IMG/VR virus record: IMGVR_UViG_3300035126_000127
Location: 1 to 49,087 of that record
Length of the DNA: 49,087 bases
Origin: a virus
Reading direction: 5' to 3' (one strand)
Shown: positions 3,136 to 46,437 of the stretch, in pieces
How positions within the stretch are numbered: the stretch's first letter is position 1
How the letters are laid out: every line of letters starts with the position of its first letter
Position numbers and translations under genes: made by a program
Notes under the pieces: generated by a model
The model's input: the letters and a program-made list of their open reading frames with translations, nothing else
The model's database searches: none
Told to the model about the DNA's origin: nothing

Positions 3136-3939
3136 TTAATTAAAGTAGTTAAGGTAAATAAAGTCTTCTAGGATTTCCATCTCTTTTGCTTTTTCAAGAT
3201 TCTCTTGGATGGCATCCATTTTGGAATAATAAATTTCTTCAGAGATATCAAATTCGTCTGTAAGATCAATTATACCATCTTTATTAAAGTAATTCCCAAT
3301 GTCTGGAGCACCAAGATAAACTGGAATGGTTCCAGTTGCGAAACAATCTAAAAGTTTTTCTGTGAAGTAAGTTTCATATTGTCCATTCTCAATCGCAACC
3401 GAGAACATATAATCACAGAGTCCTTCTTCTTTTAGAGCAATCTCATTGAATCCGCGACCATAAAGATCAACCTGATCTCCAATTCTCTCAACCCACTGAA
3501 GACGCAACCTGTGCCCCTCACACATTCTTTTATTAGAGGCAATCATAGAAATCATTTTTGATTTCTCATAGATTTTAGGTTCTTTGATCCAAAATCCTTG
3601 AGCAGGACACCACTTGAACTTTGAATCAATTTTCAAAAGTTCTTGGTTATGTGTGAATATGGCATCAAACGTTTCCAGATATTTTTCAGGAAACATCTTG
3701 ACTTGATCTACGATTTGTGGCGTGATGTATTTTGATTCCAAAAGCCACGCATACTTGGGGACCTCTGGGGCATCATCCATCCAGGCATAAGGAAGAGTGC
3801 TGTCAATATAAAACGAACACTCTCCTCCAGTCTTCACCCATTCAATATACTTTGACTCTTTACCGTGAACAGAATATCCTTTATTTCCATTCGTAAGATG
3901 AGTAAAAGTATCTCCGACAAGATTAAACTTTCTTCGCAT
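3136..3939 (-). CDS. GT10 family fucosyltransferase-like glycosyltransferase
   Basis: 267 aa from ATG at 3939, which overlaps the end of the epimerase gene by 17 nt; a longer in-frame extension inside that gene is not needed. The C-terminal half has the hallmarks of alpha-1,3-fucosyltransferases (GT10): MISMIASNK, LYGRG, then SVAIEN near residue 180, YFTEKLLDC and GTIPVYLGAPDI near residues 192-214. The family uses GDP-L-fucose or related GDP-sugars as donor. Directly upstream is a GDP-mannose 3,5-epimerase-like gene, whose product would be GDP-L-galactose, so an L-galactose or L-fucose donor made by the operon is plausible. Confidence 0.8.
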   Translation of the reverse strand: MRRKFNLVGDTFTHLTNGNKGYSVHGKESKYIEWVKTGGECSFYIDSTLPYAWMDDAPEVPKYAWLLESKYITPQIVDQVKMFPEKYLETFDAIFTHNQELLKIDSKFKWCPAQGFWIKEPKIYEKSKMISMIASNKRMCEGHRLRLQWVERIGDQVDLYGRGFNEIALKEEGLCDYMFSVAIENGQYETYFTEKLLDCFATGTIPVYLGAPDIGNYFNKDGIIDLTDEFDISEEIYYSKMDAIQENLEKAKEMEILEDFIYLNYFN

Positions 3940-4975
3940 TGATTTGCTCACTAATCCAATGATAAGTCTTACGGATACCTTCTTCCAGAGTCTGTGAATA
4001 GTCCCAACCAAGTTCCCTACGGATCACATCGTTATTGGAGTTGCGTCCACGAACTCCCAGAGGACCATCAATATGATTCTTCTCTACATTCTTACCAGCA
4101 ACTTTAGCAGCAGTATCTACGAGTTGATTGATAGTCACCATTTCTTCCGAACCAATATTGACAGGTCCAATGAAGTTAGAATCCATCAGACGGCGAGTTG
4201 CCTCAATACACTCATCAATGTAAAGGAAAGAACGAGTTTGTTTGCCGTCACCCCACACATCAATTGTGCCACCTTCTTCAGGAAGATATGCTACTTTGCG
4301 ACAGATTGCTGCGGGTGCCTTTTCCCTTCCACCGTCCCAGGTTCCTTCGGGACCGAAAATATTGTGGTAACGAGCAACGCGAACTGGAATACCATAATTG
4401 CGATGATAGGCAAAATACAGTCGTTCGCTGAAGAGTTTTTCCCATCCATATTCAGAATCTGGGTTAGCAGGATAAGCGGACTCTTCACGACAATCAGGAT
4501 TATCAGGATCTAGTTGATTATGCTCTGGATACATACATGCCGATCCAGAATAGAAGATCTTGGTATCTTTCTTACCAAGACGCTCATTCATCTGATGTTG
4601 CATTTCAAGAACATTCAGATTAATGGTTGCGGAGTTATGCATGATATCGGCATCATTTTCTCCAGTGAATACAAAACCAGCACCGCCCATATCAGCAGCA
4701 AACTGATAGATCTCATCAAAGGATTGAATATAACGATAAGGAACTGATTGATAGAAGTTTCCTCTATCACCTTTGTATTCAAGCACACGCCGAACGAAAT
4801 CTACATCACGCAGATCTCCGAGAACAAACTCATTCGCTTCGTGCTGTGAATATTCTGGATACTTAAGGTCTACACCACGAACCCAGTATCCTTCTGAACG
4901 CAATCTGCGAACCATATGACTTCCAATGAAACCACCAGCACCAAGTACAAGTGCTTTCTTCATATACTGACTCAT
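3923..4975 (-). CDS. GDP-mannose 3,5-epimerase-like enzyme
   Basis: 350 aa (ATG at 4975; ATG at 4963 is an alternative that removes four residues). Closely resembles plant/bacterial GME, which converts GDP-D-mannose to GDP-L-galactose/GDP-L-gulose. Visible: LGAGGFIGSH (NAD loop, residues 11-20), FAADMGGAGFV, SGSACMYPE with Cys147, YGWEK with Tyr176 and Lys180, GTWDGGREKAPAA with Lys219, WGDGKQTRSF, GPLGVRGRNS. From memory the plant enzyme uses Cys145, Tyr174, Lys178 and Lys217, so the spacing is the same with a +2 offset. First gene of the sugar operon, just downstream of a sigma70-like promoter. Supplies a GDP-sugar for the GT10 neighbour. Confidence 0.88.
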   Translation of the reverse strand: MSQYMKKALVLGAGGFIGSHMVRRLRSEGYWVRGVDLKYPEYSQHEANEFVLGDLRDVDFVRRVLEYKGDRGNFYQSVPYRYIQSFDEIYQFAADMGGAGFVFTGENDADIMHNSATINLNVLEMQHQMNERLGKKDTKIFYSGSACMYPEHNQLDPDNPDCREESAYPANPDSEYGWEKLFSERLYFAYHRNYGIPVRVARYHNIFGPEGTWDGGREKAPAAICRKVAYLPEEGGTIDVWGDGKQTRSFLYIDECIEATRRLMDSNFIGPVNIGSEEMVTINQLVDTAAKVAGKNVEKNHIDGPLGVRGRNSNNDVIRRELGWDYSQTLEEGIRKTYHWISEQINAKKV

Positions 4976-4999: not shown

Positions 5000-5028
5000 A
5001 TTATACCAAAAAAGGAGAGTTTATGCAA
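5000..5028 (-). promoter_or_regulatory. Sigma70-like promoter of the sugar operon
   Basis: Minus strand: TTGCAT (5023-5028), 17 nt, TATAAT (5000-5005), about 25 nt before the epimerase start. The -35 box lies in the loop of the preceding terminator hairpin. Confidence 0.7.
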
Positions 5029-5034
5029 CTCTCC
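5008..5034 (-). terminator. Rho-independent terminator
   Basis: Minus strand 7-bp hairpin GGAGAGT/ACTCTCC (5028-5034 with 5014-5020), loop of 7 nt, followed by six T (5008-5013). It closes the 5.0-5.9 kb unit and overlaps the next promoter. Confidence 0.8.
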
Positions 5035-5045
5035 CGTAAGGTCTT

Positions 5046-5141
5046 TCATGCACGCCACCAATTCTTTGACTGGAAATTGGAAACCAGGCGGGAGAGAGTC
5101 CCATCCGCACCAACGTCATTTGAGAGATGCCGTAAACTCAT
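5046..5141 (-). CDS. Possible 31-aa peptide
   Basis: An ATG reading frame of 31 codons (MSLRHLSNDVGADG... ending SKNWWRA) sits between the 78-aa membrane protein and the terminator. Just before it is GGAG plus a four-codon frame (MTLL) whose stop overlaps this ATG. The 140-nt stretch holds no other gene. The segment looks richer in G+C than its surroundings. No family is recognised; it could equally be untranslated RNA. Confidence 0.25.
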   Translation of the reverse strand: MSLRHLSNDVGADGTLSRLVSNFQSKNWWRA

Positions 5142-5174: not shown

Positions 5175-5411
5175 TTAAGTCATTCCAGGACTCAAGAAAA
5201 GATGGGTTAACTTTGATATTTCGGTAATACCAAAGAATGCTATCAGAAATAGCACATCCCAAAGTTTAAGTTTGATAGCAAAAGGAATACCGAGTAGACC
5301 TCCAATAAACTTTATAATCAAACCGTATTTAAAATCTCCCCATAACATGATTTGATAACCAAGTAAGAGGAGAAAGTTGCCAATGTATCTCAGGATACTT
5401 GTTTTAGACAT
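5175..5411 (-). CDS. Small multi-pass membrane protein
   Basis: 78 aa with three hydrophobic stretches (about residues 10-24, 30-47 and 51-64), so probably an inner-membrane protein. No family recognised. It follows the 88-aa gene by 28 nt and lies upstream of the terminator at 5008-5034. Confidence 0.55.
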   Translation of the reverse strand: MSKTSILRYIGNFLLLLGYQIMLWGDFKYGLIIKFIGGLLGIPFAIKLKLWDVLFLIAFFGITEISKLTHLFLSPGMT

Positions 5412-5969: not shown

Positions 5970-5993
5970 GTGTGCCAGTCAAGAAACTGGCGA

Positions 5994-11179: not shown

Positions 11180-11344
11180 TTAGAACTTGTTCATCATATA
11201 TTCTACAGTAGTTGCTACATCATTCATAGCATCTCGTAGATTTTCTCTTTGCCCCGACTCTTGTCTTACAACTGGACGGTGATCGTCAGTTAGGGTCCAA
11301 CGCCACTGTTTCATTTCATTACAATACCAGAGATTAATTTTCAT
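11180..11344 (-). CDS. Hypothetical protein, 54 aa
   Basis: MKINLWYCNEMKQWRWTLTD then a charged middle and a Met-rich end (NDVATTVEYMMNKF). The start overlaps the previous gene by 11 nt. Probably a small folded protein with a beta-hairpin (Trp/Tyr) and helix; no family recognised. Confidence 0.55.
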   Translation of the reverse strand: MKINLWYCNEMKQWRWTLTDDHRPVVRQESGQRENLRDAMNDVATTVEYMMNKF

Positions 11345-11537
11345 TCTTTGAGTATTCTAGTTTGATCCAGTTTAGAAGAGCATAAACTTCAGACAATTCT
11401 GACTTATGATCTTGATAGTCAGTATCATCTAACATTTCCTCTCTTTCGTAAAACTCAATCTCACTAGTCAAATAATCAACATAATGATTGATAGCAGTCA
11501 TAGCGACTTCTCTATCACGCTGGGAAATAAGAGACAT
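11334..11537 (-). CDS. Hypothetical helical protein, 67 aa
   Basis: MSLISQRDREVAMTAINHYV... with acidic helices (FYEREEMLDDTDYQDHKSEL) ending YSKNEN. Very strong ribosome site AGGAGG 6 nt before the ATG. First gene after the composite terminator-promoter at 11559-11593. No family recognised. Confidence 0.6.
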   Translation of the reverse strand: MSLISQRDREVAMTAINHYVDYLTSEIEFYEREEMLDDTDYQDHKSELSEVYALLNWIKLEYSKNEN

Positions 11538-11558: not shown

Positions 11559-11587
11559 ATAATACATTAAAAAGGGGGTCTTGTCAA
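11559..11587 (-). promoter_or_regulatory. Sigma70-like promoter inside a terminator
   Basis: TTGACA (11582-11587), 17 nt, TATTAT (11559-11564) on the minus strand. The -35 is in the loop of the pstS terminator. It drives the 67-aa, 54-aa, tRNA-Val and perhaps dps genes. Confidence 0.75.
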
Positions 11588-11593
11588 CCCCCT
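11569..11593 (-). terminator. Terminator of pstS
   Basis: GGGGGT/ACCCCC hairpin (11587-11592 with 11574-11579), 7-nt loop, followed by five T on the minus strand; 8 nt after the pstS stop. Confidence 0.85.
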
Positions 11594-11600
11594 CTATGTA

Positions 11601-12578
11601 TCACTTCTCGCCTAAACCAACTTGTTTGACTTTGATGCGAGCCTTGTTAAGGATAGAACCAGCAAGAGGAACATAACCCAGATCATCAGCAATACCTTGT
11701 GCTTTAGTGCTCAGAGCATAGTTCAGTGCCTCACGGACTGCTTCTGCCTTACCAGCAGGATAACCACTCTTATAGGCAAGAATCCAGGTCAGAGTGGAGA
11801 TAGGATAGGCAAGGGCGCCTGCGGGGTTGGGATCTTCACCAGCAAGAGTCACAGGGTCAATCTTGATACCGTTCAGAGCAGCAGCACCAGTCACAGCGGA
11901 AGGACCAACGAACTTACCTGCTTTATTCTGGAGGACGGCAGCTTGGAGTTTATTTACGCGAACGAAACCCGTGTTCACATAACCGATAGCACCAGGAGTG
12001 TTCTTAATGGTTCCAGCAACACCCTCATTACCCTTAGCACCGACACCAACTGGCCAGTTCACGGACTTACCAACACCAGGAGCCCAACCACCGAACGCAT
12101 CCAGTGAGTTGGTGAAGGCATAAGTGGTTCCAGAACCATCAGAACGATGAACCGTCACCATCTTACCAGCAGCACAACCAACTTCCTTCCAGTCCTTGAT
12201 GTGTCCCATAAAGATATGGACAACTTGTTTCTGAGTCAGTTTCAGTTTACAACCAGGTTTGTTATAGGCAACGGCAATCGTTCCGCCGACCATAGGAATC
12301 TGAACGACACCACGCTTGACCTTTGCTGCTTCCTTTGCCTTGATAGGTTCATCAGTAGCACCAAAGTCAACAGTTCCAGCAACAAACTGGCGAACGCCAG
12401 CACCAGAACCAACGGATTGATAATTGACTTTTTCACCAGTGGTGGAAGAATAATCAACGAACCAACGTTGATAGATTGGCGCAGGGAAGGTAGCACCTGC
12501 TCCGTTAATAGCAGGTCCAGCAAATGCAGCAGCAGGAGCAAGAGCAAGACCGAGTGTAGCAATGTGTTTGAGTTTCAT
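11601..12578 (-). CDS. pstS: Phosphate ABC transporter substrate-binding protein PstS
   Basis: 325 aa, full length. Signal peptide MKLKHIATLGLALAPAAAFA (residues 1-20). Family motifs: INGAGATFPAPIYQRW, YQSVGSGAGVRQF (phosphate loop), DFGATDEPI, VHRSDGSGTTYAFT (second phosphate loop), NTPGAIGYVNTG, YPISTLTWIL. Periplasmic phosphate-binding protein; the phage version is known to raise phosphate uptake by infected cyanobacteria. A Pho box lies immediately before the gene and its terminator follows. Next to the porin gene, which likely shares the response. Confidence 0.95.
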   Translation of the reverse strand: MKLKHIATLGLALAPAAAFAGPAINGAGATFPAPIYQRWFVDYSSTTGEKVNYQSVGSGAGVRQFVAGTVDFGATDEPIKAKEAAKVKRGVVQIPMVGGTIAVAYNKPGCKLKLTQKQVVHIFMGHIKDWKEVGCAAGKMVTVHRSDGSGTTYAFTNSLDAFGGWAPGVGKSVNWPVGVGAKGNEGVAGTIKNTPGAIGYVNTGFVRVNKLQAAVLQNKAGKFVGPSAVTGAAALNGIKIDPVTLAGEDPNPAGALAYPISTLTWILAYKSGYPAGKAEAVREALNYALSTKAQGIADDLGYVPLAGSILNKARIKVKQVGLGEK

Positions 12579-24670: not shown

Positions 24671-24848
24671 CTTCCTCTCCTATGAACTCTAATGAGAAAA
24701 TATCATGATCTGGAATTTCGGGATTCAACCATTCACTAAATTCAGATTGAATCGCATGGGCATCTTCAATGTTCCTGTCACAGAGAGTATGAATGCGGTC
24801 AACTGCCCAATCATGAGTTGTCTGAAGGGTCTCTTCCAAAGTTACCAT
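24642..24848 (-). CDS. Acidic hypothetical protein, 68 aa
   Basis: MVTLEETLQTTHDWAVDRIH then acidic (EFSEWLNPEIPDHDIF, EEDDTRPSQFF). Overlaps the peptidase start by 29 nt and the GIY-YIG gene by 38 nt. No family recognised. Confidence 0.5.
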   Translation of the reverse strand: MVTLEETLQTTHDWAVDRIHTLCDRNIEDAHAIQSEFSEWLNPEIPDHDIFSLEFIGEEDDTRPSQFF

Positions 24849-25260
24849 AATCTTTTCGCATATAGCGTCCTAGAATATTGCTATTATAGTACGCGGGCGA
24901 ACCATCGTCAAGAGACTCAATCAACACATTATTTAGGAAAAGCTGTTTTGTTTCTTCGTAGTTGCATTGTCCTTTTGTTTTGTGGAGACTAAGGATTGTT
25001 CTACTAAACGAATTTTTTCCCCAAAACTTAACATCATCTTTGAGTTCAGGACAGGATCCGTAATATGCTTTCCAATCGGACTCTGACTTAACTTTTCTAG
25101 ATTTTCCTCTTGGTGTGCGGAAAGACCAGAAATACTTTCTACCAATATAACTACGACCAGTTTTATCGCAGTGTATATGATAAACAAAACCAAAATGATC
25201 TTGAATATGATCAGACTCAAATATTTCCCCATTGTAGATCCAGGGATTTTCATAACTCAT
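24811..25260 (-). CDS. GIY-YIG-type endonuclease-like protein
   Basis: 149 aa. The GIY-YIG core is visible as FGFVYHIHCDKTGRSYIGRK (residues 23-42), with Arg41/Lys42 and a later helix with Glu102/Glu103 (NYEETKQLF) that fits the catalytic Glu. Such proteins in T4-like phages are often homing endonucleases (Seg type) or repair nucleases. No intron is seen around it, so it would be free-standing. Its promoter is the composite at 25309-25347. Confidence 0.72.
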   Translation of the reverse strand: MSYENPWIYNGEIFESDHIQDHFGFVYHIHCDKTGRSYIGRKYFWSFRTPRGKSRKVKSESDWKAYYGSCPELKDDVKFWGKNSFSRTILSLHKTKGQCNYEETKQLFLNNVLIESLDDGSPAYYNSNILGRYMRKDYGNFGRDPSDNS

Positions 25261-25308: not shown

Positions 25309-25338
25309 AGTCTAGCAATAAAAAAGCACCCCTGTCAA
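25309..25338 (-). promoter_or_regulatory. Sigma70-like promoter with -35 in a terminator loop
   Basis: TTGACA (25333-25338) is exactly the six-base loop of the terminator; 18 nt later TAGACT (25309-25314). Confidence 0.65.
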
Positions 25339-25347
25339 GAGGTGCTT
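25321..25347 (-). terminator. Terminator of the 332-aa virion-type gene
   Basis: AGCACCTC/GGGGTGCT 8-bp stem (one G-T pair) closed by a TTGACA loop, followed by T's on the minus strand; 20 nt after the gene's stop. Confidence 0.82.
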
Positions 25348-26393: not shown

Positions 26394-26401
26394 TATTTAT
26401 A
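26394..26401 (-). promoter_or_regulatory. Late-type promoter motif TATAAATA
   Basis: TATAAATACTCAC, fused to the end of the T-tract of the preceding terminator, 28 nt before the ATG at 26366. Confidence 0.75.
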
Positions 26402-26425
26402 AAAAAAGAGGGTCCAAAGACCCTC
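26402..26425 (-). terminator. Terminator after the nrdB unit
   Basis: GAGGGTC/GACCCTC 7-bp hairpin (26408-26425) then seven T's; the stop codon of the 53-aa gene lies in it. Confidence 0.85.
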
Positions 26426-32575: not shown

Positions 32576-32583
32576 TATTTATA
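32576..32583 (-). promoter_or_regulatory. Late-type promoter motif TATAAATA
   Basis: TATAAATATCTG directly at the end of the terminator T-tract, 32 nt before the ATG at 32544. Confidence 0.75.
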
Positions 32584-32613
32584 AAAAAAGGAGACCTTTA
32601 GTTTTGGTCTCCT
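32584..32613 (-). terminator. Terminator of the 59-aa late gene
   Basis: AGGAGACC/GGTCTCCT 8-bp hairpin (32589-32613) followed by seven T's. Confidence 0.87.
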
Positions 32614-32625
32614 TTCTTATTTCAA

Positions 32626-45283: not shown

Positions 45284-45546
45284 CAGGCAATCATTTCAAA
45301 ATATTTGGAAAGAAGATCTGCGGTTGGATCTACGATTGTAAGTATACTATCGGAATGAATCATAAATTCATTTTGATTCGTATACTCAATCCAGGGTTCA
45401 AGAACATAGATACCAGATTGATTCACTAACTTGAATGGATTCGTAAGTTTACAATCTGGTTCCCCAAGTTCAGACCCTACTTCTACAATTTCACTAATTA
45501 GAACAGTATCATTCTTGAGTAGAAGACACTTGATTATTTGGTCCAT
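45283..45546 (-). CDS. Small beta protein, paralog of the next gene, 87 aa
   Basis: MDQIIKCLLLKNDTVLISEI... A beta-rich small protein; CLLLKNDTVLISEIVEV parallels VILLKSGEQIITDVKEI of the upstream gene, and both have an NPF(K/L)LV-like stretch and a long YxxxF/W strand. An Sm-like or SH3-like barrel is possible but not shown. Overlaps the previous gene by 38 nt. Confidence 0.55.
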   Translation of the reverse strand: MDQIIKCLLLKNDTVLISEIVEVGSELGEPDCKLTNPFKLVNQSGIYVLEPWIEYTNQNEFMIHSDSILTIVDPTADLLSKYFEMIA

Positions 45547-45835
45547 TTACTTTCTCCAAGTACATTTGTTTAACGCTATCCAATGGTTCCACTAATGTTA
45601 CAACATAACTTGTAGGAACTGCGATATCCTTTTCTGCTGACAGCAGCATCCATTGAGAAAAAGTAATCTCATAAGATCTTTCGTTATCCTCTTCAGATAC
45701 CAAGAATGGTTTATTAATTGTGACCTTTTGAGGTTGATTAAAAAGATAGGCTACTGTTTTTTCTTCAGCAACGATTTCTTTCACATCAGTAATTATCTGT
45801 TCTCCAGACTTTAATAAAATTACTTTGATTGACAT
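45509..45835 (-). CDS. Small beta protein, Sm/SH3-like candidate, 108 aa
   Basis: MSIKVILLKSGEQIITDVKE... with strands VAYLFNQPQKVTINKPFLV and YVVTLVEPLDSVKQMYLEKV. Paralog of the 87-aa gene downstream (shared ILLK..E.IIT/LIS.V.E start). First gene after the composite promoter at 45858-45886. The ILLKSGEQIITDV start recalls Sm1-type or LSm folds that bind RNA; unproven. Confidence 0.55.
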   Translation of the reverse strand: MSIKVILLKSGEQIITDVKEIVAEEKTVAYLFNQPQKVTINKPFLVSEEDNERSYEITFSQWMLLSAEKDIAVPTSYVVTLVEPLDSVKQMYLEKVNGPNNQVSSTQE

Positions 45836-45857: not shown

Positions 45858-45886
45858 ATTATAGCAAAAAAACAGAGGGGCGTCAA
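45858..45886 (-). promoter_or_regulatory. Sigma70 promoter with -35 in a terminator arm
   Basis: TTGACG (45881-45886), 17 nt, TATAAT (45858-45863), on the minus strand; drives the 108-aa, 87-aa, gp43, uvsX, gp41 unit. Confidence 0.8.
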
Positions 45887-45910
45887 CTGGATTTTGCCAG
45901 TTGCCCCTCT
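45867..45910 (-). terminator. Terminator of hsp20
   Basis: AGAGGGGC + AACTGG arm against CCAGTT + GCCCCTCT with a small bulge, followed by a seven-T run. 14 bp in total. It overlaps the promoter of the gp43 unit. Confidence 0.87.
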
Positions 45911-45938: not shown

Positions 45939-45945
45939 TATTTAG
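45939..45945 (-). promoter_or_regulatory. Possible late-type motif CTAAATA at the hsp20 stop
   Basis: CTCTAAATAAAATTG; it includes the hsp20 stop codon, so chance is likely. Confidence 0.25.
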
Positions 45946-46376
45946 AGATAATCTTTTCTCTTGTGATGATCAGGAACAATTCGTCCAAGAGTGATCGTTA
46001 GAAGACCATCCTCAAAATCAACTGATCTAACTTCCGTGTCATCCGAGAGTGTCCAGGAACGTGTAAATGACCGTTGAGCCAAACCTTTGTGAACATACTT
46101 GGCATCAGTTTCCTTATCTTCTTTTTGACCCTCAACAAACAATTTACCATCTTGGGTATAAACAAAAACTTCTTTTTTTCTAAATCCAGCAAGTGCCAAT
46201 TCAAGTCTTGATTCTACATTACTGACTTGAACAAGATTGTAAGGTGGATAGTTTGTAGTTGTTTCGTGTAGATGGAAAATACGATCAAAGTATTCATCCA
46301 TTCCAATACTATATTTGTTGATCCTCTCCATCAGGGCAGGAAGATCCGCAGCAGTATACCTTGTGAGGTTAGTCAT
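45942..46376 (-). CDS. hsp20: Small heat-shock protein Hsp20 (alpha-crystallin type)
   Basis: 144 aa. The alpha-crystallin domain spans about residues 42-132: YPPYNLVQVSN, ELALAGFRKKEVFVY, GKLFVEGQ and HKGLAQRSFTRSWTLSDDTE, then DFEDGLLTITLGRIVP. Binds unfolding proteins as an oligomer; cyanophage copies are common and probably protect phage or photosystem proteins. Good AAGGAG ribosome site 9 nt before the start; a -10 is at 46438. Confidence 0.92.
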   Translation of the reverse strand: MTNLTRYTAADLPALMERINKYSIGMDEYFDRIFHLHETTTNYPPYNLVQVSNVESRLELALAGFRKKEVFVYTQDGKLFVEGQKEDKETDAKYVHKGLAQRSFTRSWTLSDDTEVRSVDFEDGLLTITLGRIVPDHHKRKDYL

Positions 46377-46437
46377 TATGGTAGCTCCTTTAAAAGCGAG
46401 TTTGTGTTTTGTGGGACCCTTTCGGCATCCGTATATA

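Follow-up and report, generated by a model that had tools for sequence, protein, structure and literature searches.

In cyanobacterial viruses, the hairpin of a transcription terminator often appears to contain a portion of the following gene's start signal. On the minus strand of a virus record of 49,087 bases (the whole stretch analysed, hereafter the window), whose best matches are cyanomyoviruses (T4-like Synechococcus phages), there are four composites of this kind, each of which is very probably a single compact stretch of DNA with two ordinary functions, those of a terminator and of a promoter. At the level of RNA, the hairpin and the T-run behind it would end the upstream transcript, as an intrinsic terminator does. 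At the level of DNA, the tip of the hairpin would provide the -35 element, the 3′ arm and the T-run would form a spacer of 17-18 nt, and the -10 element would follow, with a host σ70-type polymerase starting the next unit about 7 nt past the -10. That RNA actually ends and starts at these sites, and that the promoters are of the early class, we infer from the sequence. The element would then offer a sequence rule for probable transcript ends and starts across a large group of viruses that infect cyanobacteria.

Anatomy of the four composites

The earlier note on this DNA had proposed four terminator/promoter composites on the minus strand. All four exist, with corrections to sites 1, 3 and 4, and comprise the following parts:

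5013..5035, minus strand: site 1 terminator hairpin, GGGAGAGTT-GCATA-AACTCTCCT; the T-run continues to 5008
5023..5028, minus strand: site 1 -35, TTGCAT, of which TT belongs to the stem and GCAT to the loop
5000..5005, minus strand: site 1 -10, TATAAT
3923..4975, minus strand: nucleotide-sugar epimerase gene (PF01370; phrog_540), downstream of site 1
11574..11592, minus strand: site 2 terminator hairpin, GGGGGTT-GACAA-GACCCCC
11559..11587, minus strand: site 2 promoter, TTGACA-17-TATTAT, preceding a 67-aa ORF (11334-11537)
25324..25347, minus strand: site 3 terminator hairpin, AAGCACCTCT-TGAC-AGGGGTGCTT
25309..25338, minus strand: site 3 promoter, TTGACA-18-TAGACT, preceding a SegE-like GIY-YIG ORF (24811-25260)
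45874..45910, minus strand: site 4 terminator hairpin, long and bulged, after an Hsp20 gene (45942-46376)
45858..45886, minus strand: site 4 promoter, TTGACG-17-TATAAT, preceding an ORF (45509-45835; DUF6561)

Reading of the sequence bears out the geometry proposed for site 1 (a hairpin, TTGCAT at its loop, 17 nt, TATAAT): TTGCAT takes in the final two bases of the 5′ arm and runs on into the loop, the spacer is exactly 17 nt, and the tail consists of six T's, the first of them shared with the end of the 3′ arm, followed by GG and TATAAT. Only 3 of the 6 positions of this -35 agree with TTGACA. The same geometry had been claimed for the other three sites. Site 2, whose hairpin lies directly 3′ of a phosphate-binding (pstS-like) gene (11601-12578), is as described, but site 3 has a spacer of 18 nt and TAGACT as its -10, and site 4, while it does hold TTGACG-17-TATAAT in its hairpin, has the -35 across a 3-nt bulge on the 3′ side of the hairpin, outside the apical loop. 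The cores of the four sites, as read, differ and share no repeated core.

The predicted folding energies of the hairpins at sites 1-4 are -13.4, -14.9, -14.2 and -22.1 kcal/mol (z from -5.4 to -3.5), and at each site none of 200 shuffled sequences folded as well. As promoters, all four have the σ70 layout of a TTGACA-like hexamer, 17±1 nt and a TATAAT-like hexamer; sites 2-4 score 10-11 out of 12 and site 1, with its half-matching -35, scores 9. At sites 2-4 no Rfam RNA reached its gathering score, and site 4 gave sub-threshold matches only. A sub-threshold match to the ROSE_3 thermoregulator (46371-46433, minus strand; 19.9 bits against a gathering score of 43, E 0.13) adjoins the Hsp20 gene on its upstream side.

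A terminator detector (strong, score ≥14; loop limited to 15) found nine strong terminators on the minus strand of the window, ten with site 4. Four of the ten are fused to an early promoter, two run into the late promoter TATAAATA and four do neither. The earlier claim that four of the five or so strong minus-strand terminators followed by an early unit have the fused geometry therefore keeps its four elements and loses its denominator, which was undefined. The two late composites are as follows:

26394..26425, minus strand: terminator whose T-run runs into TATAAATA
32576..32614, minus strand: terminator whose T-run runs into TATAAATA

Such terminator-to-late-promoter composites are also present in S-SRM01, in S-T4 and in the orthologue loci described below. 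Like the four sites they join a terminator to a start signal; unlike them they use no -35, the T-run meeting the late -10. Elsewhere on the minus strand of the window, a ACTGGCAC box stands directly upstream of hairpin-free TTGAC promoters at 5979 and 16026 (in related loci TGNCACA is found at -31 of TATAAT), and a promoter-like site, TTGACA-17-TATACT, starts one base past the tRNA-Thr gene (14551/14550).

AT-rich DNA full of T-runs might bring hairpins and promoter-like sequences together by chance, and in keeping with this promoter-like sites show no excess in overall number (51 in the first 20 kb, 49.2 in shuffles). Their placement is another matter. Among 23 promoter-like sites on the minus strand that score at least 10/12 with a spacer of 17 or 18, three (sites 2-4) have a -35 that falls entirely within a strong terminator hairpin, the site 4 hairpin having been entered by hand because the detector limits the loop to 15. 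Rotated positions reached three such overlaps in 8 of 20000 trials, and so did placing the 10 non-coding promoter-like sites at random in non-coding DNA (likewise 8/20000).

Recurrence and covariation among relatives

We searched IMG/VR with the pattern GGGGNTTGACNNNCCCCNTTTTN{3,9}TATAAT, which describes a G4/C4 stem whose loop holds TTGAC, followed by a T-run and, at a distance left free, by TATAAT. It matched 87 stretches, which comprise 41 distinct cores in about 16-18 unrelated flank clusters. The spacer was 17 in 48 of them, 18 in 29 and 19 in 10, and never 14, 15, 16 or 20, all of which were allowed. With the loop reversed to GTCAA, the otherwise identical pattern matched no IMG/VR stretch, against 87. 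In a collection of bacterial and archaeal genomes the fused pattern matched two stretches, both in Oscillospiraceae MAGs.

Two window genes, and not the element, served to retrieve 160 loci, which contained 181 unique strong terminators. In 54 of these TATAAT begins 5-8 nt past the stem, and in 35 the start of TTGAC is 14-18 nt ahead of the stem end. A wider set of 312 orthologue loci, fetched with four window genes, contained 326 strong terminators, 124 of them fused; in 34 more the T-run leads into TATAAATA, the late promoter, which lies at +4 to +7 from the stem. Fused elements thus make up a large share of the strong terminators in the loci surveyed, a share enriched for those families and not genome-wide, because the query genes are ones found at the four sites or close to them. 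The counts are also not independent, since many rows are related by descent, and stems that are AT-rich or bulged escape the detector. Outside T-tracts, the position of TTGAC relative to TATAAT has its peak at -23 (262 occurrences, against a mean of 2.1 per offset), and 17 nt is therefore the usual promoter spacing in these loci. When further contigs with fused or related elements were compared with a phage collection, two of three matched T4-like phages and one (L012) matched nothing.

The surveyed loci also contain a second class of hairpin followed by TATAAT, with no -35 (L255-L365; for example L279, L312 and L264). Here TATAAT is preceded, at a distance of about 36 nt, by a TGNCACA box, and TTCAGTT is often present at +9; just 1 of 172 contexts has both the box and a good -35. 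One such locus, L279, matches cyanomyoviruses near the sliding clamp. The TGNCACA element is possibly a middle promoter.

Upstream of the epimerase, a terminator with a -10 is present in 46 of 74 unique sequences (window included), the other 28 having no element by the detector. In 72 distinct sequences of the site 1 stem, 96.0% of pair cells are standard, compared with 84.4% after shuffling (0/500 shuffles as high), and 116 cells have changed on both sides, compared with 30.3 in shuffles (again 0/500). Eight of the ten pairs change on both sides, and controls slid along the sequence were lower on every measure. Within this covarying stem, the outer letters are free to vary whereas the TT of the -35 is fixed: in 87 segments, T occupies -23 and -22 in 86 each, while the pair -27/-11 is AT in 27, GC in 27 and TA in 25. 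Even where the centre of the hairpin has shifted by half a base (18 of 115 segments), TTG is still 17 nt from the -10 in the rows read. As the rows were chosen partly by T-run, -10 and pairing, only the letters of the -35 and the kinds of pairs are unselected among these conserved parts. The comparison shows a conserved anatomy in which the stem covaries around a fixed -35; the conservation of the loop -35 among relatives, on which the earlier note had staked its reading, is borne out.

The -35 of the 73 wcaG-linked elements (see below) is TTGCAT in 42, TTGACA in 11, TTTACA in 10 and another hexamer in 10. TTGCAT as a general phage -35 is unsupported outside T-tracts, where TTGCA is hardly enriched at -23 (15, with a mean of 3.6 and a maximum of 12 elsewhere). 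Since TTGCAT is weak and hardly enriched, the case for a -35 role at site 1 rests on its exchange with TTGACA and TTTACA.

Upstream sequences of the site 3 gene carry the fused element in 38 of 54 unique cases, with stems plainly different in sequence, and have no fused element in the remaining 16. Among the rows listed without a terminator, 14 of 15 by eye keep TTGAC before a -10 of the TAGAAT/TAGACT type. This reads as a terminator formed around a -35 that was already there, and the keeping of the promoter with or without its hairpin also supports an organised composite. At site 4, 13 of 38 relatives were called fused, but 11 of these have TTGCCC, come from distant relatives and are doubtful; 12 further rows called terminator-free keep, by eye, TTGAC-17-TATAAT/TATAGT within the hairpin, as the stem finder limits loops and so missed most of site 4.

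Chance overlap is ruled out by the loop reversal (0 against 87), the spacing peak, the overlap null within the window and the covariation of the stem around the fixed -35, and the view of the earlier note that the composite is organised stands. It is fairly probable that the two signals are simply packed into a short intergenic space, with no coupling between ending and starting, a reading compatible with an element doing two jobs. The 3′ arm and T-run are about as long as a 17-nt spacer, and the site 3 promoter is there whether or not a hairpin surrounds it; against packing, RB49 uses tandem signals instead.

The wcaG RNA upstream of site 1

The RNA upstream of site 1, absent from the earlier note, is a full-length member of the wcaG family:

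5044..5141, minus strand: wcaG RNA (RF01761), 98.4 bits (gathering score 42), model positions 1-98 of 98
5175..5411, minus strand: ORF of 78 aa (phrog_2318, function unknown), whose 3′ side runs into wcaG

A protein-coding reading of the sequence before site 1 (...KN[WK]WRA-stop) was rejected, as its frames are not open in relatives and Rfam identifies wcaG. In relatives, a wcaG-like hairpin module lies just 5′ of the Rfam model (about 5172-5142 in the window, minus strand), and wcaG may extend further 5′ than the model. Small annotated 'hypothetical proteins' overlap wcaG and the fused element in S-SM2 (L645:4436-4630) and S-SRM01 (L372:19947-20153) and are likely misannotations.

In the available part of the discoverers' account (Weinberg et al. 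2010, PMC2864571), wcaG is a probable cis-regulator and possible riboswitch, presented as apparently regulating exopolysaccharide and high-light genes; that part names no promoter-bearing terminator between wcaG and the gene. We scanned for wcaG by its own sequence and not by terminator, promoter or gene, and obtained 120 hits, of which 100 were distinct and could be used. Seventy-three end in a terminator that carries the next promoter and 10 in a terminator without a promoter; for 17 the detector found no terminator, although at least three of these (L388, L470, L474) plainly have one. Among ten loci from named isolates, wcaG is present in seven, followed in five by the fused element; in S-SCSM2R a bare terminator stands between wcaG and the start codon straight after it, and in Sf-FS3 neither terminator nor fused element separates wcaG from the start codon that follows. 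In most of these phages, then, wcaG lies in the tail of the upstream unit, with a terminator and a new start between it and its supposed target. At site 1 the embedded promoter would start the sugar gene independently of wcaG, which could affect that gene only by terminator read-through, because the terminated RNA would end in wcaG. We consider that wcaG may act by attenuation or as a 3′ element.

Under attenuation, the site 1 hairpin would primarily be the expression platform of a wcaG riboswitch, with the promoter secondary or used at one stage of infection. The position of this riboswitch candidate (PMC2864571), which ends 8 nt before the hairpin, fits this, as do the 10 RNAs with a promoter-free terminator and the arrangement in S-SCSM2R. 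Convincing antiterminator pairing was not seen: in the window GGGAGAG of the terminator arm complements CTCTCCC within wcaG, but over the relatives the longest complement between arm and wcaG is 7.52, compared with 7.42 (sd 0.06) when arms are swapped, and 3 of 50 swaps reach it. The 17 RNAs with no detected terminator and the lack of an Rfam RNA at gathering score at sites 2-4 also speak against it, and we regard this reading as tenable but rather doubtful.

Alternatively, wcaG could be a 3′-UTR or a stand-alone small RNA terminated at the hairpin, and not a 5′-UTR regulator of the sugar gene, the promoter serving to separate units. A same-strand ORF ends 12-330 nt upstream in all 91 wcaG RNAs with enough upstream sequence, and within 400 nt upstream only two strict promoters (TTGAC, then TANNAT) were found, both more than 320 nt away, by a criterion that would miss weak or middle promoters. 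Gene families vary on both sides of the wcaG-linked elements, which places site 1 at boundaries between changing genes. On the other hand, the many downstream families include, by eye, many sugar- or glycan-like genes, as expected of cis-regulation, and the Sf-FS3 start codon follows wcaG directly, with no terminator between; we think this alternative unlikely.

A coupled switch, in which a terminated polymerase would restart on the promoter in the same DNA while a read-through polymerase would clear it, and in which at wcaG sites one RNA fold would determine read-through and the activity of the sugar-gene promoter alike, seems improbable to us. If termination and restart are indeed coupled, the element would lend itself naturally to the study of polymerase recycling. 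The element also bears on how wcaG is to be tested as a riboswitch candidate: any construct that includes both wcaG and the gene downstream brings with it an independent promoter, by which a switch could be masked.

Comparison with PeSL cassettes and other phages

The promoter-early stem-loop (PeSL) is a short cassette between modules of T4-like phages that combines a terminator stem-loop with a σ70-like early promoter. Such cassettes are said to have been described in T4-type phages by Arbiol et al. in 2010 and Comeau et al. in 2014, reportedly as near-identical repeated copies in each genome that are able to recombine. A small open-access literature search, which is no proof of absence, returned no mention of a -35 in a terminator loop. 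In a gained region of cyanophage S-PM2, PeSL density is given as far below that of the intensely shuffled regions of other T4-like phages (PMC4503421).

Some isolates carry the fused element and others lack it. In the parts read, there are three in S-SRM01, two in S-T4, and one each in DSL-LC03, S-SM2, Sf-CH5, SynMITS9220M01 and Bellamy, and none in S-SSM7, Sf-FS3 and S-SCSM2R. None of 43 strong terminators in 150 kb of RB49 is fused, nor any of 11 in 150 kb of Syn9; in RB49, TTGAC stands at +14 to +17 or at +29 to +36 after the stem. The fused element is therefore a lineage-dependent variant.

Unlike PeSLs as measured in RB49, where the promoter follows the hairpin in tandem, the elements described here have the -35 inside the hairpin, and the four window cores, as read, are not near-identical copies. 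Like PeSLs, they join a terminator-like stem-loop to a σ70-like promoter on the same strand of a T4-like phage, and those linked to wcaG, as at site 1, sit between varying gene families. The idea is accordingly not wholly new: the element is a fused variant of the known PeSL cassette of T4 phages.
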